From: Actinomycetota bacterium
GTDB taxonomy: Bacteria; Actinomycetota; Acidimicrobiia; Acidimicrobiales; Ilumatobacteraceae
Assembly: GCA_009919275.1 (NCBI GenBank)
Contig: RGCG01000002.1
Span: forward strand, 1 to 64,000
Length of the DNA stretch: 64,000 bases
Direction: 5' to 3'
Shown: positions 23,034 through 64,000 of the stretch, one piece after another
How the letters are laid out: every line of letters starts with the position of its first letter
Position numbering within the stretch: the stretch's first letter is position 1
Position numbers and translations under genes: made by a program
Notes under the pieces: generated by a model
Seen by the model: the letters and a program-made list of their open reading frames with translations, nothing else
What the model was told of the DNA's origin: nothing
Databases searched by the model: none

Positions 23034-23321
23034 ATGCAATTCCCAGAACACGAATCTGCGGACAATTCAGAGCTCAGCCCGGAACGGGGCTGGCAAGACG
23101 AGGCCAACTGCCTCGGCGTCGATCCCGATCTTTTCTTTCCCGAACGCGGTGCATCAACCCGCGAGGCCAAGGAAGTGTGCAGGGGTTGCGTCGTGCGCAA
23201 CGAGTGTCTCGAGTATGCGTTGGTGAACGGTGAGAAGTTCGGCATTTGGGGCGGACTCTCCGAACGCGAGCGTCGTCGCCTGCGCCGAGCCCGAGCTCAG
23301 GCGAATCGCAACGTCGTCTGA
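23034..23321 (+). CDS. WhiB-family [4Fe-4S] transcription regulator
   Basis: This 95-residue WhiB protein has its four cluster cysteines (ANCLG, VCRGCVVRNEC), the GIWGG turn and a basic RERRRLRRAR tail that binds DNA. WhiB proteins are actinobacterial redox-sensitive regulators that partner with the principal sigma factor. The ATG at 23034 is preceded by GGGAGGCAATCC; the ORF track start at 22875 would add a non-homologous leader. Its last codons and stop are the first unit of a tandem array. Confidence 0.93.
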   Translation: MQFPEHESADNSELSPERGWQDEANCLGVDPDLFFPERGASTREAKEVCRGCVVRNECLEYALVNGEKFGIWGGLSERERRRLRRARAQANRNVV

Positions 23322-23387
23322 CGCATAAACAACGTCGTCTGACGCATAAACAACGTCGTCTGACGCATAAACAACGTCGTCTGACGC
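23310..23387. repeat. 21-bp tandem array overlapping the whiB stop codon
   Basis: A 21-bp unit (AACGTCGTCTGACGCATAA plus AC) is repeated three times perfectly with a fourth partial copy of 15 nt. The first unit holds the WhiB C-terminal codons Asn-Val-Val and the TGA, so each unit repeats that stop. Each unit can fold a small CGTC/GACG stem. The array fills the whole space to the convergent formiminotransferase gene, whose TAA begins 2 nt after it. Confidence 0.95.
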
Positions 23388-33983: not shown

Positions 33984-34988
33984 ATGGCCCGCGACCTCGC
34001 TATCGACCTCGGCACCGCGAACACGCTGGTCTACATGAAGGGCCGCGGCATCGTGTTGAACGAGCCGTCGGTCATCGCGGTCAATCGCAAGACCAGTGAG
34101 GTCCTCGCCACGGGGCACGAGGCGTGGAACATGATCGGTCGCACCCCCGGGTACATCGTTGCGGTGCGGCCTCTTCGCGGTGGGGCAATCACCGACTTCG
34201 ACATCACCGAGCGAATGATTCGCTTGCTTCTTCAGCGGGTCGGAGTTTCGCGGTTCACCCGCCCCAAGGTCGTCATCTGTGTTCCGTCGGCGATCACCGA
34301 AGTCGAGCGTCGCGCGGTGACCGATGCAACGCGCCGAGCCGGAGCCTCCGATGCACAGTTGATCGAACAACCGATGGCAGCCGCCATCGGTGCCGAGCTT
34401 CCCATCGACGAACCGGTGGGCAACATGGTCATCGACATCGGTGGCGGAACAAGCGAGACCGCCGTCATCAGCCTCGGCGGCGTCGTGGCTCTCGAGGCCA
34501 TCCGCGTGGGCAGCTTCGATATCGACGCTGCCATCCAAACCTACGTGCGCCGCGAACACGGCATTGCCATCGGAGAGCGGACTGCCGAGGAAATCAAGAT
34601 CCAAATCGGAACCGCCGCACCGATGCCAAACGAACGCGGTGCTCAGGTACGTGGGCGCGATCTCGTCACCGGACTTCCGAAGAACATCGATCTCTCGGCC
34701 GAGGAAGTGCGCTTCGCAATCGACGAAGTCGTGTCGCAGATCGTTCAGTCGGTCACTCGTTGTCTGTCGAAAGTGCCACCGGAAATGGCACAGGACTTCC
34801 TGCAGCGCGGCATGTACCTCGTGGGTGGTGGCGGATTGCTTCGCGGCCTTGCCCAGCGAATCGAACGTGAAACCGACGTGCCGGTGCGCATGTCGCCGAT
34901 GCCCCTCGAGGCCGTCGTGCTCGGCGCGGGCCACTGCGTCGAGAACTACCAAGTCCTCCGCAGTATGTTCATGGGCGCGAGGCGTTAG
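33984..34988 (+). CDS. mreB: Rod shape-determining protein MreB
   Basis: This 334-residue actin homologue has the phosphate-1 loop AIDLGTANTLVYMKG at the N-terminus, VIDIGGGTSETAVISLGG (phosphate 2) near residue 150 and LVGGGGLLRGLAQRI (adenosine motif) near 285. It forms filaments that guide lateral cell-wall synthesis. mreC, mreD and rodA are not next to it, which is unusual for mreB loci. Its last codons and TAG form the first unit of a 34-bp tandem array. Confidence 0.95.
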   Translation: MARDLAIDLGTANTLVYMKGRGIVLNEPSVIAVNRKTSEVLATGHEAWNMIGRTPGYIVAVRPLRGGAITDFDITERMIRLLLQRVGVSRFTRPKVVICVPSAITEVERRAVTDATRRAGASDAQLIEQPMAAAIGAELPIDEPVGNMVIDIGGGTSETAVISLGGVVALEAIRVGSFDIDAAIQTYVRREHGIAIGERTAEEIKIQIGTAAPMPNERGAQVRGRDLVTGLPKNIDLSAEEVRFAIDEVVSQIVQSVTRCLSKVPPEMAQDFLQRGMYLVGGGGLLRGLAQRIERETDVPVRMSPMPLEAVVLGAGHCVENYQVLRSMFMGARR

Positions 34989-35093
34989 CCGAACGCCCGG
35001 TGGGCATTTCGCGAGGCGTTAGCCGAGCGCCCGGTGGGCATTTCGCGAGGCGTTAGCCGAGCGCCCGGTGGGCATTTCGCGAGGCGTTAGCCG
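34977..35093. repeat. 34-bp tandem array overlapping the ends of two convergent genes
   Basis: A 34-bp unit starting GCGAGGCGTTAGCCGAGCGC is repeated three times plus a 15-nt partial copy; unit 1 differs at one base (GAACGC for GAGCGC). Unit 1 contains the mreB stop TAG. On the other strand unit 3 supplies the TAA of the convergent PQQ-dehydrogenase-like gene. Each full unit has a GCCC-GGT-GGGC hairpin followed by ATTT, so the array could act as a string of terminators. Confidence 0.95.
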
Positions 35094-36135
35094 GCGCGAA
35101 GGACGCGGCCTTGTTGCCCGTGATCTTGATTGCGGTGACGCGTCCGGTGCAATAGTCCCCGAAGACGTACCAGCCGAGGAGTGCAGGGAGAGCCTTGTCG
35201 CGTACCTTCGTGCCGCCGATGATCGAACAGCCCTCTTCGCCGTGTTCGTAGACGTAGACGGGTGGGGCATGGTCAGGGGCGGACTGGTCCTTGTTCAGGC
35301 GCGAACGCCCCTCGTAGGCGCTCCACCCGAAGTTGGCCCCACGCCCCGACCCGTCAACGGCCCACGCGACGTTCAGTTCTTCCCAACGTTGTTGGCCGAC
35401 ATCGGGAACCCACAGGTTCATTTCGTCGTCGAACTCGAACCGCCACGGATTGCGAAGTCCGATGGCCCAGATTCTCGGGTCGGCCGACTTCGCGTCGCGG
35501 GCGAGCGAGTCGATGCTGACGATCTTCCCGAACAACGACTTGGGGTCGAGTGCGAGACGCTTCGGGTCGTTACCCGAGCCGCTGTCGCCGGTGCTGATGA
35601 AGAGTCGGCCGCCCGGACCAAAGTCCATGCTGCCGCCGTTGTGGACCGACTTCTGGTTTCGTACCAGTTGGAAGACGACGACCCGTGTTGAGGCGTCTGC
35701 AGTGTTGTCGTCACGCATTGCGTAGCGGGCCACCACCGTGTTGCCCTTCGAGTCGGTGTAGTTGACGAACAAGTAACGACCGTTCGTGTGGAAGACGAGG
35801 CCGAGAAGGCCACGTTCCGCATCGGCGCGGGTGAATCGGGTGAGATTGAGTACGACGGAGCGTCCCTTCGAGACTGCGTCGTAACGAATGACCACACCAT
35901 TTTGTTCCGCGATGTAGAGGCCGTCGTCGTTCGCGCGGGTGGCAATGTCGACGGGAATTCTCGCCGAGGTCACCTTCTCCAGTCGTAGCGCCTTGTTCGA
36001 CACTGATCCGGCGTGTGTCGGACCCAATCCGCCAACCCAGGGGACCGCGGTGACGAATGCGATCGCAAGCAGCAGGGCGCGTACCGATAGGCGCCGCTGA
36101 AACGTGGGAATTCTCACCGAAGTGAGTGTAGGCAT
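35053..36135 (-). CDS. Secreted PQQ-type sugar dehydrogenase-like beta-propeller, C-terminally replaced
   Basis: This 360-residue secreted protein belongs to the glucose/sorbosone dehydrogenase (PQQ-dependent) family: DDGLYIAEQNGVVIRY near residue 70, ERGLLGLVFHTNGRYLFVNY near 107, GDSGSGNDP near 182, IGLRNPWRFEFD near 225 and GWYVFGDYCTGRV near 325. The N-terminus has a signal peptide. Compared with its upstream paralogue it lacks the last roughly 40 residues (a propeller strand set) and instead ends in PANASRNAHRALG, which is translated 34-bp repeat. Start and paralogue stop overlap as TGATG. Confidence 0.85.
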   Translation of the reverse strand: MPTLTSVRIPTFQRRLSVRALLLAIAFVTAVPWVGGLGPTHAGSVSNKALRLEKVTSARIPVDIATRANDDGLYIAEQNGVVIRYDAVSKGRSVVLNLTRFTRADAERGLLGLVFHTNGRYLFVNYTDSKGNTVVARYAMRDDNTADASTRVVVFQLVRNQKSVHNGGSMDFGPGGRLFISTGDSGSGNDPKRLALDPKSLFGKIVSIDSLARDAKSADPRIWAIGLRNPWRFEFDDEMNLWVPDVGQQRWEELNVAWAVDGSGRGANFGWSAYEGRSRLNKDQSAPDHAPPVYVYEHGEEGCSIIGGTKVRDKALPALLGWYVFGDYCTGRVTAIKITGNKAASFAPANASRNAHRALG

Positions 36136-54946: not shown

Positions 54947-55456
54947 GTGGGTGTTCGTCGTGCGAGAGGAAATTTTTTAGCCGTTTGCATAGTCGGTGCA
55001 TTTGTACTGGGTGCATGCGGTGGTTCCGACTCGTCGTCGAATGACGAAACAACTGCCGACTCCACCGAAGTTGTCAACGAAACAGATGAAGCAGAGGAAG
55101 CAACAACTGACACCGCTGTTGAAGCAACCGGTTCGGTTGAGGAGTTCTGCAAGTCGGCACTCGACAACCAGGGTGGTGCCGACATCGCCGCCGACGATGA
55201 CCCTGCAGCGATTGCCGAGAAGTTGTCGGCGAATGCTGCGGCACTCGAAGAGATGGCATCACTCGCGCCGAGCGACGTGAAGGCAGATGCCGAAGCTGTT
55301 GCCACTGCTGCTCGCAGCATGGCCGAGGCAATTTCTGGTGACCCGACTTTGGACAAGTTCAACTCGCTGATCGAAGAATTCGCAACATCCGATGCCAACA
55401 CCGCGTCAGCCAACGTGCAGACATGGGTGAAGGCGAACTGTGAGCCCGGGAAATGA
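54947..55456 (+). CDS. Secreted lipoprotein, function unknown
   Basis: This protein of about 169 residues has a lipoprotein signal ending FVLGACGGSDSSS, an acidic Thr/Glu linker and a helical Ala-rich domain with two cysteines (EEFCKSALDN and VKANCEPGK), which could form one disulfide. I do not recognise a family. GTG 54947 is preferred over the ORF track TTG at 54932 because AAGGGGGCAGC lies in front. The stop overlaps an ATG of the next ORF. Confidence 0.7.
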   Translation: MGVRRARGNFLAVCIVGAFVLGACGGSDSSSNDETTADSTEVVNETDEAEEATTDTAVEATGSVEEFCKSALDNQGGADIAADDDPAAIAEKLSANAAALEEMASLAPSDVKADAEAVATAARSMAEAISGDPTLDKFNSLIEEFATSDANTASANVQTWVKANCEPGK

Positions 55457-55473
55457 TGAGAGGTACATCAATC

Positions 55474-56529
55474 ATGAGGAAACGATCGTTCTTGACCGGG
55501 GTCATCGCGGCCACGGTTGTGCTGGCTTCGTGCGGCGGGTCATCTGACTCGTCGTCGGGTGAGACAACGGCATCGACGCGTGTGAAGAACGCGGCGCTAC
55601 CCGCAACGACTGTTGCTGCGACAACCGCGGCACCCGAGACCACCGCTGCACCTGCAACGACTGCGGCACCTGCGACAACCGCGGCGCCTGCAACGACCGC
55701 AGCACCCGAGACCACCGCGGCACCTGCGACAACCGCAGCGCCCGAGGTCACGGTGCCCGAAGTGACAAAGGTGAAGGACCCGGGTGGCTACCAGGCGACG
55801 TACCTCGCAACCACCGACCCACTCGGCTCACCGCGTCCCGCGTTGCCCGCCGAAGCATCGATCACAGCGAATGCGGCCAAGGCAGTCGGCAGCGTTTACC
55901 GCACCGACAGCGACGGCATCCTCGGTGTCACTGCCGCTGAATGGTCGGGCACGGCCACGCCGCTCACGCTTCGCTGGACAGTGAACGGCAAGCCCTGTGA
56001 CAACTGCGCCTTCCTTTCGCCCACCTCGAAGAAAGTGGTGAAGGCCCTGCTGGCGGCGACATTGCCCGGTTCCGGAATCACCGGCATTCGAGGCCTCGAT
56101 GCGACGGCCGTCGGAGTCGGTCGGTATCAGGGCAGTGGTTGGGGTTTCGAAGTCCTCATCGGCGACCCGGCATCGGCTGAAGCGCAAAAGACCGGCAATG
56201 CAATCCGTGACTGGGCGCTTTCCTGCTCGGGTGATACCGCAGCGACCTGCCGCAACGTCGAGCTCGGAATCGGCGAACTGCGCTGGAAGAACCAAATCTG
56301 GTCGGTGGCCAACTGCACCTCTGCGCTGCAGAACGGCGGACCAAAGATTCTCCTCGCCGACGCAGCAAATCTGCTGAAGGGCGCCACTGCCGAAACCGCA
56401 AGCCTCGTGCGCCAACGCGCCGCAATCGATCGGGTGGCAATCGCCACGCCCACGTATCGCCCAGTTTTTGCGAGCTCGGGTGACGCCCGCGCTCTCACCG
56501 GATTCGCTTCGACAGGATGTGCGAAATGA
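55474..56529 (+). CDS. Secreted lipoprotein with TTAAP-repeat linker, function unknown
   Basis: This protein of about 351 residues has a lipoprotein signal (TGVIAATVVLASCGGSS), a hexapeptide-repeat linker and a globular domain with cysteine pairs (GKPCDNCAF near residue 183, SCSGDTAATC near 252, then NC and GC). The domain is not recognised. Start choice: ATG 55474 with AGAGG about 12 nt upstream, or ATG 55453 overlapping the previous stop as ATGA; the shorter form gives a cleaner signal peptide. The stop overlaps the giant gene start as ATGA. Confidence 0.68.
   Translation: MRKRSFLTGVIAATVVLASCGGSSDSSSGETTASTRVKNAALPATTVAATTAAPETTAAPATTAAPATTAAPATTAAPETTAAPATTAAPEVTVPEVTKVKDPGGYQATYLATTDPLGSPRPALPAEASITANAAKAVGSVYRTDSDGILGVTAAEWSGTATPLTLRWTVNGKPCDNCAFLSPTSKKVVKALLAATLPGSGITGIRGLDATAVGVGRYQGSGWGFEVLIGDPASAEAQKTGNAIRDWALSCSGDTAATCRNVELGIGELRWKNQIWSVANCTSALQNGGPKILLADAANLLKGATAETASLVRQRAAIDRVAIATPTYRPVFASSGDARALTGFASTGCAK
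55621..55746 (+). repeat. 18-bp coding repeat, seven TTAAP(A/E) hexapeptides
   Basis: Seven imperfect 18-bp units encode TTAAPE or TTAAPA in an extended Thr/Ala/Pro linker between the lipid anchor and the globular domain. Synonymous differences between units show it is not a fresh slippage product. Such linkers in actinobacteria are often O-mannosylated. Confidence 0.9.
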
Positions 56530-59500
56530 GCATGAATAGCTTCAAGAAATTTGCCCTGGTATCGGCGGCGATCAGCATTGCAATCGTCGACATCACCCCG
56601 GTCGGCGCAAGCAGCCCGGCCGATTCGACGACCACCACGGTCGCACCGGCAGCCGAGGCGACCACCACCACTGGCGCGCCCGCTGCGGGTGACGCAACCA
56701 CGACGACGGCTCCGGGTGCTGCAGCGCCCGCCGCGACCGACGTCGCGGTGCCCACCACGATTCCCGGTCTCGACAACGCGTTACTCGCGCCACTGCCGAG
56801 TGACGCGAAGCCCGACAACGTCGACCTCGTGCCGGCAACCACGGCACCGGCCACTACGTTGCCGCCCGCAACGCCGGGCAAAGCGAAGTCCGGCCCCGAC
56901 ATCATGGCCTCGGCAAACCAAACAAGCGTTGTCACCACCGACCTCAACGCGGTGATCATTGTTCGTTTGTCGAACATGGGTAACGCGGCCGCGGGTATTG
57001 AAGCCCCGGTCTCGTTCTCGTTGGCCAAGTTGCCGCGAGGCGTCAAGGTGCTCGAGGTTCTTCCTGCGCTGAACGACAAGTCGGCGATCGGTGACCAGGG
57101 CTGGGAGTGCAACGCGACATCGTGCACGCTCAAGCAGAAGACCGACACCGGTATCTCCAGCGGCATCATTCCCGTTGCGGGTGTCGTGCGCGCCGACCTG
57201 CGCGTGAACTACGCACCCGATGCGGAATTGTTCGTCGCCGACGATGCGTACACCACCAAGAGCAACGAGCTTGCCGAAAAGCGTGACATCGCAGGAATCC
57301 AGGCCTTGTCGCGTACCGTGCCGCACTTCCTCGTGCGTGCGTCACTCGCGGGTGATGCTGCTCCCGAAAACGACGAGTTCGCTCTCGCGGTGCTGGGCGC
57401 TCCTCGCAATACAACGGGCAACAGCCCCGCCGAGGACACGGGCCGCAGTTCATGCGTCTTCGTTGACGGTGAACCGTCCGGAAACACCTATCCGGGTGGT
57501 CGCTTCAAGATCGTTCTGCGCACGCTTCCGGTGTGTGATCAGGTTTTCTCGGGCGACATCACTTTCACCGACATTCTTCCCGCACAGCTTGGTCTCACCG
57601 ATGTGAAGATTTCCGGCAACGGTTGGACCTGCGATGACCCTGCCGCACCGAAGCGTTGTACGCGCACCGGTGGCGAGATTCAGCCCAGCTTCTTCAGTGA
57701 GCCGCTCATCATCGAGGGTCGCACATCGAAGACCGCAGCGGTGACGGCACAGCCCTTCACGTGGAAGGTCAACTCAGTGAGCCGCGTGCTGGCCGATGGA
57801 ACCCAGCTCGAGGCGCTCGCCGAACTCACCTCGCAGATCAACGAAGCCCCGAAGCCCGACCTCGTCGCAAAGGTCATCGCGCGTGATGGCAAGACCAGCA
57901 TGGTTGCTCCCGGCACGTTGCTCGTCGATGCGAAGGTGCGTTCGATCAACGGTATTGGTCAGAACGTCGCCGTCACCGTGGGTGTCCGCAAGGGCGTCAC
58001 AATTGAAACGTCAGCCGATGGCTCGCCCGGTTGGACCTGTGCGTCCGCCGCCGCCGACCCGGCTGCCGGCGAAGGTGCAACTGCGTTCAAGTGCGTGAAG
58101 GCAGAGTTGTTCGACACGGCCGAAGAAACGGTCGCTTTCAAGTTCACGACCACCGAAGCGACCGAAACGGGCGCAGCGCAGGTCATCAGCGTGATCTCGG
58201 CCGAGAACGAAGATGCGGCGAAGGTCGAGAACAACCGTTCGGGCCAGACGTTGCTCATTCAGCCCGCTCCGGCAGCAATGCCCGGCATCGTGTTCACGCG
58301 TGCCGACGAGAAGGGCGCAACCCAGGCCGTCAGCGACGGTTCGACAACCGAGATCATCGTTGGCAAGAAGGCCAGCTACGGCCTCGCGGTCTCGAACCTC
58401 GGCGCGGCTCCCATCGCAGCTGGATCGGTTGTTCGTCTCGAACAGTACGTATCCGACTTCGCGATCTTCTCGGGCAAGTCAGCACCGAAGGAAGCCGACT
58501 TCAAGGGCGACCTTGATTCGAAGAAGATTCCGGCAACGCCGGGCCAGTGGGCCTGCGTTGCAGGTCAAGGCACTCCGCCAGTGGTGCAGTTGCCCGAATC
58601 CCTCGCGGGTGCGGGGGAGGCCATCGCCGCGCCGACACCCGTTGCCACACCGGGCAAGAAGGGCGCGGCAATTCGTTGTGAGTTGACGCTCGCCGCTGCC
58701 GTGGCACCCGAGGCACAGACGCCAATTCTCAATCTCACCGTCGAGGCCGCGAATTCGGCCAAGCCGGGCAAGCCCGAATGGCCGGTGTACGCGTCGTTGC
58801 CAGCGGTGAAGACCGCTCCGGTGGCCCGCTACGGCATGGGCATCACCGTGGTCAAGCAGCAACCGGCGCTCACCGCGGCGATTGCCGCACCGGCCGGACC
58901 TCGTCCGGGTGGCAAGGCCGCTGCGCAATTCAGCGTGAAGAACGAAGGCACGGCCGACTCCAATGCTCAGTCGATGATCATCAAAACCAAGGGCGGTCGT
59001 TTGACCGGCGCCAAGGGTGAGGGTTGGAACTGTGCAGTCGTCGGTGGCTTCATCGCCGAGGGCTTCATTGCGTGCTCGCGCAAACTCCCGCTGAAGGTCG
59101 GGGAAGCGTCGAAGGCCGTCGCTGTCGACTATCAGTCGAGTGACCCGAAGGCCAAGAAGATGGTGTTGCAGGTGACGTCGATCGTCTCGAACATCTACGG
59201 CCAGCCCACCAGCCAAACCTCGACCCAGGAAGTCGACCTGCGCGCGCCGCTGTCGTTCTCGATCCAGGGTCCCGACGTCATTGTCGATCAGATCGTCGAT
59301 GCCACCGGAAAGCGTGTGCCGTCGTCGATTCTCCTCACAACGGTCGGCAACGCCGACGGTTCGAAGTTCACGTGGCGCCAGCTCTGCACGACCGATGCCG
59401 ATGTCAAGGCATCGAACGGGCTCTGCAAGGCCGTCACCTCCGCGGCCAAGTGGGTCAGCGACGCTCCGTCGACGGGCCCCACGGCGAATCTGCTCGCACC

Positions 59501-62500
59501 CGCCGTCAAGGCGGAAGAGACGTTGGTCTTCGAAGCAACCGCTCTCGACGAGGCGGGAACTTCCTCGACCGCGCGCTTCTCGGTGCGTGTCCAGCCGTTG
59601 CCCACCGCGCAGGGTCCGACCGGCAAGGCGGGAAGCGGCAGCGGTTCGTCCGTGCTGCGTCGCGTGCCGAAGCAGTCGGGACCAAGCGTCCGCGCATTTG
59701 CCGCCACCGCGCCGACATCGGGCGCCGGTGACACTTCCGTTCTCACGTCGGCCAATGCCGGCGTGACGGTCAACGGCAACATCTTCGGTGGTTCGACGCT
59801 CACCGTCGCTCAGGGTGCCGCTGTGTCGGTCACCGCCGCGGCCTCGGGCGTTGGCGCGGTCACCTACGCGTGGTCGCAGGCCGCGGGCCCGACACCTTCG
59901 GTGCTTGCAACAGCCGTTACGAACACCGCAACGGTCGCGTTCACCGCACCCGCAGCGAACACAACCATCAGCCTCCGCGTGGTCGCAACCGACTCACGCG
60001 GCGAAAAGTCATCCGATGTCGTCACAGTTGTCGTTGGCACCGGTGGCGCTGCCGCCGTGTCGGCGAACATCACCGAGGGCGAAGGTCCCTTGGCAGTCGA
60101 CACGGCGAAGGCAATTGCTCTCAACGCAACCGCAACCGGTTCGGGCGCCATCACCTATGCCTGGACACAGGTGTCGGGTCCTGCTCTTACGTTGAACGGT
60201 GCGAACACTGCAGCGCTCTCGATCGCGGCATCGGCCGCAATCGGCACCGCAGTCATCCTGGTCACTGCCACCGACGCCACAGGCGCCAGTGCAACCGACC
60301 AGATCACACTGCAGATGAACCCAAGCGGTGCACCGACCCCGTTGTGTGACTTCGTCGAGGCAATCTCCACGAACACCGCCTCCAAGCTCGAAGCGACGTA
60401 CAAGGCGATCGGTATCGGCAATCTTGATCTGTCACAGCTCAAGGTGAACTCTTCGACGTGTTCGGAGAGTTCGAAGGTGTCGTTCACCAACGCCGGGTTC
60501 TCGCTCGCCGGCTACCTCACCGTTTCGGGTGCAAGCGGCTCGATCAGCGCCGCCGGTCTCACCATTCGCTCGGCCACTTTCACCGGTCCCGAGTCGTGGG
60601 GTTCACCCGTCTTCTCGATCGGTGGAACCGACCCCGTCGGCCTCTTCATTCCGTTCTCAAGAGCATCGATTGCAATCGGCGCATTCGAAGGCAAGATCGA
60701 ATCGGGTTCGATGCCGTTCCTCAAGTTGCCCGCCGGCTGGACGCCCGCTGCGACGTTGACGTTCAGCGTCGACGCCGAGGGTGGCAAGGCCGTCAGCCTC
60801 GAAGCAACCGCTACCGGCCCCGAGAAGAACGGCAAGAAGCCAACGGCCCGCATCGCGGGTGCCGTCGCCACAAACGGCACGTTCTCGCTTGACGCATCGC
60901 TCGCCAACGGGTTCGAGCTCTTCGGCTCGACAATCGACTTCGCCGGCTCGGTGAAGAAGGAAACCCCCGAAGCCGACGTCGCTTTGTCGCTGAAGGGCGC
61001 CCTGCAGGGTGAGATCGCGCTCACGTCGAACGTGAAGATCACCGCATTGTCGGCGTCGTACGACAAGGGCGGCGCCATCACAGGTTCCGGCACGATGACA
61101 ATCGGCTCGGGCGACACCGCACTGGCAGTGACGGCCGACCTCAGTTACACCGATGCAAACAACCATTCGTTCGCCGTGAAGGCCGCAACCGCGGGTGGCA
61201 AGTGGAGCCCGGGCAAGGACATCTCGATCCCGCTCGCCAGCGCGTCGGGTTCGTACGTTGCCAAGGACGGCGCAAAGACCATCGACGTCTCCGTCGTCGG
61301 TGGTGACGTGTCGCCCTTTACCGGTCTCAAGTTCGTCGCACCCACCATCAAGGCGACCGCACAGTGCCCGGCAACGGGTGCCTGTGACGTGAAGGTCAAC
61401 CTTGACTCGGGTGCGGAAGTCACCCTGGGTTCAACCTCGACGACCGGCAAGATCACCGGTGCGGTCGACATCACCAACAAGACGGCGTCACTGAAGGCAT
61501 CGCTCGACAAGATTCCGCTCGTCGCGGGCCTCGAGATCACGTCGGCCTCACTGGCAATCGATTCCACCAACATCGGTGCCGCGAATGCGGCCACCACCGT
61601 CACGTTGGCGGGTTCGATGACAGTGTTCGAAAAGACGGTCAGCGCCTCTGCGGCGTTCTCGAAGACCGGCGTGTTGCTGACCGCCGACCTGCCGGAGCTC
61701 GCACCGTTCGGCGCAAGCGGACCGGTCTGGAAGCCGGGCCAGCTGAGCTGGTCGTCGGGTCCGATCTCGATCACACCAAAGGTGCCGTCGTTGCCGAACA
61801 TCAAGTCGGTCAACCTGACACCCAGGGTGCCGCGTCTCAACATGGCGATCGCACTGCCCGAGCAGATCAAGGGTCTCGCTTCGGCAACGGTGAGCAACGT
61901 TGGCGACATCGCCCTCGATGGTGAAGTCGACTTCTCGACCGGCAAGTTCAGCCTCGCCGCGTCGCTCACGAACGACACGATCGACCTCGCTGGTGCAATC
62001 AGCCGCGAGAAGACCGGCGACCCGTTCAAGTACAACCTCACCGGCAAGGTGAAGAAGGCAATCGCCCTCACCGACTCGGTGTCGCTGACCACGCTCGACG
62101 TGAGCTTCGGCAACGCAACGGCGGGTGGCCCGCTCACCCTCACCGGCAATGGTTCGGTTGACGTGAAGTTGCCCGACTCGACGGTTGTCACCGTCGCGGG
62201 TGCGGTCACCTACAACTCGGCCACCGACTTCACCGTTACCGTCTCGGCGGGTGCAACCGCTCCGTCGTTCGCGGTCACCGGTGGCGAGGCTCTGAGCCTC
62301 GGTCAGGCAAGCGGTACCTTCAAGCGCACCGCTGCAGGAAGCGTCCTCGACGTCAACTTGTCGACCGCTGGTCCGTGGAAGCCCGTCAGTGGCCTCAGCG
62401 TCACCAACGTGTCGGCCAAGGCATCGGTCACCTGCAACACCGGCGCCAAGTGCGTGCCGGCGTTCGACCTGAAGGGAACCCTCGGCTTCGACCTCGGTAT

Positions 62501-64000
62501 CTCGGGCCTCAACTCCGCGGATATCAGCGGCAAACTCGACGACAAGGGCTTCGCGTTCAGTGCGAAGTTCAACGACCTCGCGTTCACGTCTGACATCAAG
62601 TTGTTGGCTCCGACCTTCAGCCTGGCGATTCCACCGAAGACCAGCACCGACAAGGCCTCGGCATCGTTGTCGGGCACGTTCGCGCTCTTCGGCGCGACGC
62701 TCAACGCAAACGTCAACTTCAGCTCGGCGGGCGTCCTGCTCACCGGCGACTTCCCGAAGTTCAACTTCCCGGGCTCCGACATCGGCTTCGACGGTGGTCA
62801 GTTTGCATGGGCGCTGCGCGCACCCAGCAGCATCAGCTGGACACCGAAGGTTCCGAACTTCCCGTCACTGCCGGCCATCAGCCTGCCCGCTGGCGCTCCG
62901 CGCCTCGTGTTGTCGATGCCGACACCCGACGCAGTGAAGCAGTTGTCGGGCGACACGAGCCTCACCTTCGGTGCGGTCAAGGTCGAAGGCAGCATGACGC
63001 TGGCGTCCGGGGCGTTCTCGCTCACCGCGTCCTACGACTCGAATGCCACCAACATCACCGGCACGTTCTCACGTGAGGGCACCGGCAAGAACCTCACCTA
63101 CAACATCTCGGCCAAGGTGAAGCAACCGCTCACCGTCGTCGACGGTGTGAAGGTGGCCGCACTCGACCTCAACTTGAACAACACCACCGGTTCGGTGCAG
63201 GCGACGGGTACTGGTGACATCGAAATCTCCACCCCGTCGACGCCGATCGTCCTTGGCTTCAACCTGAACTACAAGTCATCGACCGACTACTCGTTCCAGG
63301 TGACGGTGAAGCCGACGGGTGGTACGACGTCCTGGTCGCCCTTCGCAGGATTCAGCCTGCCGCTCGGCAACCTGACGGGCACGATGGCACGTTCGGGTCA
63401 GACCCGCACGTTCAGCCTCGCGTTCAAGGGCGCCTCTGACTGGATTCCGGTCGGCTCTGCGAACGGCCCCGGTGTGAAGATCAGCGAGCCTGGCGCGGCC
63501 ATCTCGGCCACGTGCCAGGTCGGCGCGAGCTGCGTGCTCGCGTTCACTGCAACCGGCAAGGTGTCGGTCAACGTCGGTCAGGGTTACACCGCGCCGGCAA
63601 CCCTCACCGGTACCTTCACCAAGGACAGGTCGGAACTGCAGGCGGTGTTTGCCGACATTCCGGTCACCACCGGCGTCACGATCAAGGCTCCGACACTCGC
63701 CGTTGCATACGCGACGGTCGGGGGTCTCTCGGCCAGCGTGTCGGGTAGTGCCGATGTTCTCGGCACCACACTGTCGATGGCCGCGGTCTTCTCCGCCCAG
63801 GGCGTCATCGTCTCGGGTGGAATGAACGACTGGACGCCGATCCCCGGCGGCCCGACGCTCACCAACGCCTCGTTCGCATTCGCGACCTACAACGCGGTCC
63901 AGGTGACGTTGCCGAACGCACCAAACCTCGGCAAGGTCGACATTCCGCTCAACAACCCGACGCTGCTCGCGGGCTTCAAGGTCCCGGGCTGGTTGAAGGA
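56526..64000 (+). CDS. Giant secreted repeat protein, 3' end outside window
   Basis: From ATG 56526 (ATGA overlap) an open frame of more than 2,490 codons runs off the window; the ORF track omits it for lack of a stop. It has a signal peptide ending ITPVGASS and a Thr/Ala/Pro linker to about residue 120. Five beta-sandwich-like modules follow, each with a W-x-C and a later Cys (near 193, 367, 503, 675, 834). Two PKD/Ig-like domains (VTYAWSQAAGP, ITYAWTQVSGP) lie near 1110-1265. From about 1480 a module of about 358 residues repeats three times, with CPATGAC, CNTGAKC and CQVGASC at 1614, 1970 and 2330. No enzyme motif is seen; an adhesin or surface-layer role is inference. Confidence 0.8.
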   Translation, partial: MSMNSFKKFALVSAAISIAIVDITPVGASSPADSTTTTVAPAAEATTTTGAPAAGDATTTTAPGAAAPAATDVAVPTTIPGLDNALLAPLPSDAKPDNVDLVPATTAPATTLPPATPGKAKSGPDIMASANQTSVVTTDLNAVIIVRLSNMGNAAAGIEAPVSFSLAKLPRGVKVLEVLPALNDKSAIGDQGWECNATSCTLKQKTDTGISSGIIPVAGVVRADLRVNYAPDAELFVADDAYTTKSNELAEKRDIAGIQALSRTVPHFLVRASLAGDAAPENDEFALAVLGAPRNTTGNSPAEDTGRSSCVFVDGEPSGNTYPGGRFKIVLRTLPVCDQVFSGDITFTDILPAQLGLTDVKISGNGWTCDDPAAPKRCTRTGGEIQPSFFSEPLIIEGRTSKTAAVTAQPFTWKVNSVSRVLADGTQLEALAELTSQINEAPKPDLVAKVIARDGKTSMVAPGTLLVDAKVRSINGIGQNVAVTVGVRKGVTIETSADGSPGWTCASAAADPAAGEGATAFKCVKAELFDTAEETVAFKFTTTEATETGAAQVISVISAENEDAAKVENNRSGQTLLIQPAPAAMPGIVFTRADEKGATQAVSDGSTTEIIVGKKASYGLAVSNLGAAPIAAGSVVRLEQYVSDFAIFSGKSAPKEADFKGDLDSKKIPATPGQWACVAGQGTPPVVQLPESLAGAGEAIAAPTPVATPGKKGAAIRCELTLAAAVAPEAQTPILNLTVEAANSAKPGKPEWPVYASLPAVKTAPVARYGMGITVVKQQPALTAAIAAPAGPRPGGKAAAQFSVKNEGTADSNAQSMIIKTKGGRLTGAKGEGWNCAVVGGFIAEGFIACSRKLPLKVGEASKAVAVDYQSSDPKAKKMVLQVTSIVSNIYGQPTSQTSTQEVDLRAPLSFSIQGPDVIVDQIVDATGKRVPSSILLTTVGNADGSKFTWRQLCTTDADVKASNGLCKAVTSAAKWVSDAPSTGPTANLLAPAVKAEETLVFEATALDEAGTSSTARFSVRVQPLPTAQGPTGKAGSGSGSSVLRRVPKQSGPSVRAFAATAPTSGAGDTSVLTSANAGVTVNGNIFGGSTLTVAQGAAVSVTAAASGVGAVTYAWSQAAGPTPSVLATAVTNTATVAFTAPAANTTISLRVVATDSRGEKSSDVVTVVVGTGGAAAVSANITEGEGPLAVDTAKAIALNATATGSGAITYAWTQVSGPALTLNGANTAALSIAASAAIGTAVILVTATDATGASATDQITLQMNPSGAPTPLCDFVEAISTNTASKLEATYKAIGIGNLDLSQLKVNSSTCSESSKVSFTNAGFSLAGYLTVSGASGSISAAGLTIRSATFTGPESWGSPVFSIGGTDPVGLFIPFSRASIAIGAFEGKIESGSMPFLKLPAGWTPAATLTFSVDAEGGKAVSLEATATGPEKNGKKPTARIAGAVATNGTFSLDASLANGFELFGSTIDFAGSVKKETPEADVALSLKGALQGEIALTSNVKITALSASYDKGGAITGSGTMTIGSGDTALAVTADLSYTDANNHSFAVKAATAGGKWSPGKDISIPLASASGSYVAKDGAKTIDVSVVGGDVSPFTGLKFVAPTIKATAQCPATGACDVKVNLDSGAEVTLGSTSTTGKITGAVDITNKTASLKASLDKIPLVAGLEITSASLAIDSTNIGAANAATTVTLAGSMTVFEKTVSASAAFSKTGVLLTADLPELAPFGASGPVWKPGQLSWSSGPISITPKVPSLPNIKSVNLTPRVPRLNMAIALPEQIKGLASATVSNVGDIALDGEVDFSTGKFSLAASLTNDTIDLAGAISREKTGDPFKYNLTGKVKKAIALTDSVSLTTLDVSFGNATAGGPLTLTGNGSVDVKLPDSTVVTVAGAVTYNSATDFTVTVSAGATAPSFAVTGGEALSLGQASGTFKRTAAGSVLDVNLSTAGPWKPVSGLSVTNVSAKASVTCNTGAKCVPAFDLKGTLGFDLGISGLNSADISGKLDDKGFAFSAKFNDLAFTSDIKLLAPTFSLAIPPKTSTDKASASLSGTFALFGATLNANVNFSSAGVLLTGDFPKFNFPGSDIGFDGGQFAWALRAPSSISWTPKVPNFPSLPAISLPAGAPRLVLSMPTPDAVKQLSGDTSLTFGAVKVEGSMTLASGAFSLTASYDSNATNITGTFSREGTGKNLTYNISAKVKQPLTVVDGVKVAALDLNLNNTTGSVQATGTGDIEISTPSTPIVLGFNLNYKSSTDYSFQVTVKPTGGTTSWSPFAGFSLPLGNLTGTMARSGQTRTFSLAFKGASDWIPVGSANGPGVKISEPGAAISATCQVGASCVLAFTATGKVSVNVGQGYTAPATLTGTFTKDRSELQAVFADIPVTTGVTIKAPTLAVAYATVGGLSASVSGSADVLGTTLSMAAVFSAQGVIVSGGMNDWTPIPGGPTLTNASFAFATYNAVQVTLPNAPNLGKVDIPLNNPTLLAGFKVPGWLK

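Follow-up and report, generated by a model that had tools for sequence, protein, structure and literature searches.

A giant secreted protein of Acidimicrobiia, built partly from three uncatalogued 358-residue beta modules and preceded by a coupled lipoprotein gene

The stretch of DNA analysed here (the window) covers positions 1 to 64,000 of contig C2 (GenBank RGCG01000002.1), which is 84 kb long and belongs to an Ilumatobacteraceae genome of 2.18 Mb that is 88% complete. The window ends within a gene for a very large secreted protein, referred to below as the giant. The frame starts at an ATG at 56526 (or 56517) and is open to the window end, giving 2,491 codons inside the window; the stop lies at contig position 66503, 2.5 kb beyond the window edge, and the product of the unbroken frame has 3,325 residues. 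The first-pass annotation of the window had treated this open frame of more than 2,490 codons as a single gene, and it is one genuine gene. Orthologues of 3,318-3,358 residues with the same layout are found in separate metagenome-assembled genomes (MAGs) of the genus, and the ratio of non-synonymous to synonymous substitution rates (dN/dS) is 0.048-0.155 across six pairs of related genes, indicating purifying selection. A frameshift or assembly artefact is ruled out by the single frame over 3,325 codons, the full-length orthologues in separate MAGs and the low dN/dS. The features of the locus, with the basis of each in brackets, are as follows.

55453..56529, plus strand: partner lipoprotein of up to 358 residues, with a lipobox (LASC), a T/A/P-rich linker and a domain of about 240 residues (open reading frame, family alignment)
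56526..64000, plus strand: residues 1-2491 of the 3,325-residue secreted giant, whose gene continues to contig position 66503 (open reading frame, dN/dS)
56526..56612, plus strand: Sec-type signal peptide, probably cleaved near residue 29 (sequence and a hydropathy peak at residue 9)
56613..56885, plus strand: T/A/P-rich linker of the giant (sequence)
56883..59705, plus strand: Ig-like, CARDB/DUF11-like beta domains with spaced Cys pairs, about 940 residues (weak profile matches only, Cys positions)
59763..60311, plus strand: two PKD domains, residues about 1080-1262 (Pfam PF22352)
60327..60737, plus strand: conserved entry segment between the PKD domains and the modules, residues 1268-1404 (profile match in distant relatives)
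60738..61820, plus strand: module 1, residues about 1405-1765 (segment-wise blastp, tree)
61821..62900, plus strand: module 2, residues about 1766-2125 (segment-wise blastp, tree; AlphaFold model m27689e0c9a1f)
62901..63995, plus strand: module 3, residues about 2126-2490 (segment-wise blastp, tree)
63996..64000, plus strand: start of the predicted C-terminal beta-ribbon region, residues 2491-3325, which spans contig positions 63996-66503 (L002:8997-11504) (sequence, model)

Three long modules lie in the main body of the giant. Segments at residues 1451-1800, 1806-2155 and 2161-2510 align pairwise by blastp over about 350 residues, with 23-29% identity and E values of about 1e-16 to 1e-37; cut at 1440-1800, 1800-2155 and 2155-2510, the segments give E values of 2e-18 to 1e-37. 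(The evidence for the repeat is this segment-wise comparison; self-blastp of the whole protein gave no off-diagonal match for the giant nor for 20 shuffled versions, and is uninformative.) Each module carries one C-x5-C pair (C1614/C1620, C1970/C1976 and C2330/C2336), whose spacing sets the module period at 356 and 360 residues, as well as an FSxxGVLLTxD-like strand (FSKTGVLLTAD, FSSAGVLLTGD and FSAQGVIVSGG). The Pro-rich turns or linkers ISITPKVPSLPN and SWTPKVPNFPS are also present, and the module borders listed above were set at them. The three modules with a period of 356-360 residues, the strand and the Pro-rich turns had all been described in the first-pass annotation and hold up; of the C-x4/5-C pair that it proposed, the spaced pair per module stands and the x4 variant does not. 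Its authoring model did not recognise the module, and no profile search has since put it in a described family: the module is absent from Pfam, NCBIfam and PHROGs, and a PDB sequence search with its profile gave chance-level matches only.

The history of the modules can be read from a tree of 27 copies. In this tree module 1 clusters with module 1 of other genomes, module 2 with module 2 and module 3 with module 3, and the deep branches are weak; because modules at the same position group across genomes, the duplications are older than the genus. The copy number is three in nine orthologues. Outside the genus there is one copy in each of three genomes (G023, G819 and G737) and two in G372, where this holds for both of its giants. 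Genome G007 has two giants in tandem (L025/L026, contig C219), with a small lipoprotein gene and partner genes between them, and the upstream paralogue has modules 1 and 3 only, so that module 2 was either lost there or gained elsewhere. These whole-module differences in copy number (3, 2 and 1-2), together with the position-wise tree, show that gain and loss proceed by whole modules.

The first-pass annotation could not see 834 further residues at the C terminus, and its view also left out two further features, the N-terminal half with its Ig-like and PKD domains and the lipoprotein gene coupled to the giant. At its end the C-terminal region has a cap rich in Trp and Cys, followed by a last strand, GRRYGIR; relatives in other families of the order share the cap pattern C...W.P..W.C...GW..W ... 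G..f.i. Its profile found no match in a PDB sequence search, and Pfam and NCBIfam at E <= 1 returned nothing in either the modules or the C-terminal region, AsmA/TamB-type and other beta-groove families included. In relatives this region is joined to differing N-terminal parts: CBM_4_9 in L033, TIG in L034, and PKD in L032, L046 and L109. A comparison of the module and C-terminal profiles gave a match confined to their overlapping border, and no ancient homology between the two is therefore claimed.

At E 0.001 the module profile matches 7 of 395 class genomes; the C-terminal profile, at 1e-6, matches 17 of 395 genomes from the class and 6 of 396 genomes from the phylum. Judged by these searches, the module family is lineage-specific, occurring in Acidimicrobiia and rarely in other Actinomycetota. 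The named matches are actinobacterial MAGs, several of them from lakes or reservoirs judging by sample names. One genome of the same genus (G011, 96% complete and the most complete of those without the giant) has no match for the giant or the partner lipoprotein, so not all of the genus has the family; several divergent paralogues occur within one genome. A PLSDB search for plasmid-borne spread of the giant gave no match. The window's own genome encodes another large protein, of 1,388 residues, which the module and C-terminal profiles match weakly (G000:C167:16498-16851; L061, L080; E 6.9e-8). A 93%-identical C-terminal region is found in L037 (JAGWWV010000001.1), which is titled 'Acidobacteria bacterium isolate REEB451'; its kinship is with the window's genus, and the title looks wrong.

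AlphaFold prediction of the structure of one module, a check that the first-pass annotation had suggested, yields an almost all-beta, up-and-down sheet of about 24 strands with one short helix, with a predicted local distance difference test score (pLDDT) of 82 and a predicted template modelling score (pTM) of 0.68. (The input was a single-module alignment, A6, of 28 module rows; a two-module alignment was out of register and was set aside.) An AlphaFold model of the C-terminal 846 residues of the orthologue in L037 reaches a pLDDT of 78 overall, exceeding 85 across most of its core; it places about 47 strands one after another in sequence, joined mostly by short turns. Within the predicted strands, odd and even positions differ on average by 3.1-3.2 Kyte-Doolittle units, versus 1.4-1.5 in shuffles, a difference reached by 0 of 500. 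The nonpolar face consists of 73% VILMFWYCA residues and 4-7% charged or amide residues; on the polar face the corresponding values are 24-26% and 33%, and Ser and Thr make up another 32-33%. In addition, the nonpolar sides of the two strands coincide in 18 of 19 two-residue hairpins (15/16 in the C-terminal part and 3/3 in the module). Given faces that differ so sharply and the behaviour of these hairpins, the simplest reading of the models is that the strands form a long sheet that is nonpolar on one side and polar on the other.

In a Foldseek search with the C-terminal part, ApoB100 chains rank first and second (E 6.6e-8 and 5.0e-7, probability 1.0), followed by LptD, ushers and porins. VIA-align gives Z up to 14.7 for the C-terminal part against barrels at a root-mean-square deviation (rmsd) of about 17-26 A, which we read as the same meander with a different curvature; for the module it gives Z 9.3 at an rmsd of 28 A, from which no fold is assigned. 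In a viral structure library the matches were all weak, to meanders of fibre-, porin- or MORN-like kind.

The lipoprotein gene is translationally coupled to that of the giant. Its stop codon overlaps the start codon of the giant (ATGA) in 9/9 orthologues, and within the genus the partner lies upstream of every giant for which upstream sequence is present (L002, L023-L025, L027-L031, L072 and L073). In G372, which belongs to another family of the order, partner homologues (E 6e-32 and 1e-31) stand directly upstream of both giants. The partner domain of about 240 residues has no Pfam match and no PDB sequence match. An in-frame repeat based on an 18-bp unit at 55616-55746 (PETTAAPATTAA) encodes the T/A/P linker of the partner, and its length differs between orthologues.

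As to the giant itself, its anatomy is solid. The signal cleavage sites of the orthologues are of the ANA-S type. The first-pass annotation had looked to the rest of the contig for a C-terminal anchor, and this expectation failed: LPxTG is absent from nine orthologues, the chain ends in a beta strand (...YDGRRYGIR) in place of a membrane helix, and hydropathy shows no second membrane segment, a later maximum near residue 1230 falling within the second PKD domain. The protein is rich in Ala, Thr, Ser and Gly, and its 26 cysteines can all be assigned to pairs of neighbours, thirteen in number. In the N-terminal Ig-like region, CARDB is matched in 2 of 10 family members (best E 0.023), and DUF11 in the distant relative L032 (E 0.03). 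The PKD domains are much clearer, since PF22352 (K319L-like PKD) is found in 10/10 family members and matches the giant in two stretches at E 2.7e-13, with 50.2 bits versus a curated cut-off of 27. A match to NCBIfam NF038112 (E 1.3e-19, 69 bits versus a cut-off of 1500) spans residues 955-1308, taking in the PKD domains with their flanking sequence, and is silent on the modules. For a known family, the searches of Pfam, NCBIfam, PHROGs and PDB sequences yielded the PKD domains alone. The profile of the entry segment is matched in G819 (E 1.1e-19) and G737 (4.6e-9). Taken together, the giant is a secreted or surface protein with an Ig-like stalk, which is a broad known kind, and its main body is a new, lineage-specific domain family.

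Other genes follow the giant beyond the window. At the main locus there is a conserved block (L002:11501-15091, contig C2 66500-70090; L024:13949-17555) that encodes an FG-GAP-repeat lipoprotein, a PAP2/vanadium-haloperoxidase-like secreted protein and, in orthologues, a pentapeptide-repeat lipoprotein; a second-locus paralogue (L030) is without this block. Close downstream is a second giant gene (L036:6133-19440, contig C2 70160-83467), whose product of 4,435 residues has a lipobox signal and contains Big_2 (Ig-like), Laminin_G_3 and PA14/GLEYA domains and many RCC1 repeats; in several members of the genus, relatives of this gene come after the giant. Elsewhere in the window, a 34-bp GC-rich unit (CGCGAGGCGTTAGCCGAGCGCCCGGTGGGCATTT) is repeated in 3.6 tandem copies, 97% matching, at 34976-35097, and a 21-bp unit (CAACGTCGTCTGACGCATAAA) in 3.8 perfect copies at 23309-23387.

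How might such a protein work? We tentatively favour the idea that the giant is a secreted amphipathic beta-ribbon that covers a lipid or other hydrophobic surface and is tethered by its lipoprotein partner. The predicted antiparallel meander of about 2,000 residues, made of the three modules and the 834-residue C-terminal part, would form an extended ribbon whose nonpolar face rests on a membrane, a lipid particle, a hydrophobic substrate or the cell surface, much as the ApoB100 beta-belt rests on low-density lipoprotein. The Ig-like part would be a spacer, and the number of modules would set the length of the ribbon. Because the giant is without an anchor of its own, the lipoprotein, presumably made from the same message, is proposed to tether or assemble it at the cell envelope. 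The nonpolar face would need some cover, and one by lipid or another hydrophobic surface is preferred over self-packing since the model is a long sequential meander whose best structural neighbour is a lipid belt.

Several points weigh against a surface-covering ribbon. Any beta sandwich shows amphipathic alternation and leaves the same sequence pattern, so the nonpolar face could be hidden by packing onto itself or onto a different sheet, and the lipid-cover reading is therefore held loosely. The hairpin test is partly circular, as the strand borders come from the model, and at three- and four-residue turns, whose pairing is less certain, there is no side preference and the same-side count is at chance (5/11 in the C-terminal part). 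The C-terminal model was made for a 93%-identical orthologue from 10 alignment rows and has a pTM of 0.48, its Foldseek TM-score to ApoB is low (0.20-0.32 over the model), and the module alone gives a best Foldseek E of 0.023, which is not significant. In addition, no partner turned up next to the distant relatives in G023, G819 and G737 within the stretches examined, some of which are short.

The same amphipathy also fits a sandwich in which sheets pair face to face, within or between chains, as a stiff two-layer stalk that presents the Ig-like part or a ligand-binding tip; the giant would then be a surface adhesin or matrix protein with no lipid involved. This is a serious possibility. Domains of the Ig-like and PKD kinds are typical of surface proteins, the C-terminal region is fused in relatives to CBM_4_9, TIG and PKD, and putative surface proteins adjoin the gene (the FG-GAP-repeat protein and the 4,435-residue lipoprotein with its Ig-like, laminin-G and PA14 domains). 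The predicted run of sequential strands argues the other way, as do structural matches to meanders (ApoB, LptD, porins) and not to Ig or fibre folds, and the lack of an anchor in the giant itself. The first-pass annotation had offered an adhesin, sheath or surface-layer protein: the very large size, the secretion and the lineage-specific, undescribed module are sustained, and beside such roles, which are possible, the predicted one-sided nonpolar sheet points as much to a cover for lipid or another hydrophobic surface.

It is unlikely that the sheet instead curls into a hydrophobic gutter that moves lipids or other hydrophobic molecules outward, as in AsmA/TamB or VPS13. A continuous nonpolar face and a co-made membrane lipoprotein, a possible loader, would suit such a conduit, but even at E 1 Pfam gives no AsmA/TamB-type match, the structural matches are simple up-and-down meanders, and there is no evident second membrane to bridge to (no Omp85). 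Less probable still is a role in a surface layer or sheath, with the giant tiling the cell surface, for although its size, secretion and Ala/Thr/Ser/Gly-rich make-up would fit, the giant and its partner are absent from the 96% complete G011, modules occur in just 7/395 class genomes, and one genome holds several divergent paralogues. A giant outer-membrane-type barrel can hardly be entertained, despite the VIA-align Z values, the Foldseek matches to LptD, porins and ushers and a last strand (G-x-x-aromatic-x-aliphatic) that we take to resemble the beta-signal of outer-membrane proteins, since an rmsd of about 17-29 A over long alignments speaks against barrel closure, although the meander matches barrels strand by strand, and Omp85 (PF01103) was found in 0/41 genomes searched, the window's own and the single-contig G023 included, by a search that was positive in 7/14 controls.

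Returning to the ribbon that covers a hydrophobic surface, a bolder version, which we regard as improbable, is that some Actinomycetota wrap lipid in a lipoprotein-held, ApoB-like beta-belt, an independently evolved system for lipoprotein particles or membrane wrapping that is sized by the count of 358-residue modules. If the nonpolar face does hold lipid, this would be a bacterial counterpart of the ApoB belt reached by convergence, and it would show how such plankton handle extracellular hydrophobic matter. In any case, the module and the C-terminal region make up a domain family that is missing from the catalogues and whose predicted build, a single amphipathic antiparallel sheet of great length, is rare; its hosts are freshwater actinobacteria, which have hardly been brought into culture. 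Even a mere stiff stalk would be a new repeat for giant surface proteins. The coupled lipoprotein provides an easy handle, as the adjacent gene pair can be co-expressed. A literature search found no paper that treats giant proteins in Ilumatobacteraceae and none that describes an ApoB-like belt from bacteria.

Among known systems, outer-membrane barrels (LptD, OprD-type porins, TOM40/VDAC) resemble the giant in their up-and-down antiparallel meander with strands of about 8-15 residues, but barrel closure seems not to fit it (rmsd 17-29 A) and Omp85 machinery is missing from the 41 genomes searched. The K319L-like PKD family (PF22352) has the two PKD domains in common with the giant, yet these are only about 5% of it. 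The Giant1-5 proteins of Apilactobacillus are likewise secreted, thousands of residues long, repeat-built and multi-domain; they use beta-solenoid, helical-repeat and SH3b-like wall-binding domains (PMC12863079), whereas the giant described here has a new beta module and a lipoprotein partner, and no wall-binding domain was found in it. The closest likeness is to ApoB100 and the large lipid transfer proteins. ApoB is an amphipathic beta-sheet belt around a lipid core (PMC12419007), and like it the giant is very long and secreted; its bulk, too, may be an amphipathic antiparallel beta sheet, as predicted. The differences are that the giant is bacterial, is built partly from three 358-residue repeats and has no sequence similarity to ApoB100 (7-9% identity in alignments), and that none of 10 family members matches a vitellogenin/lipoprotein N-terminal domain in Pfam at E <= 1. 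Given no sequence relation and no vitellogenin-type domain, the giant is not a member of the ApoB family; at most, it may work like ApoB, as a long two-faced belt.

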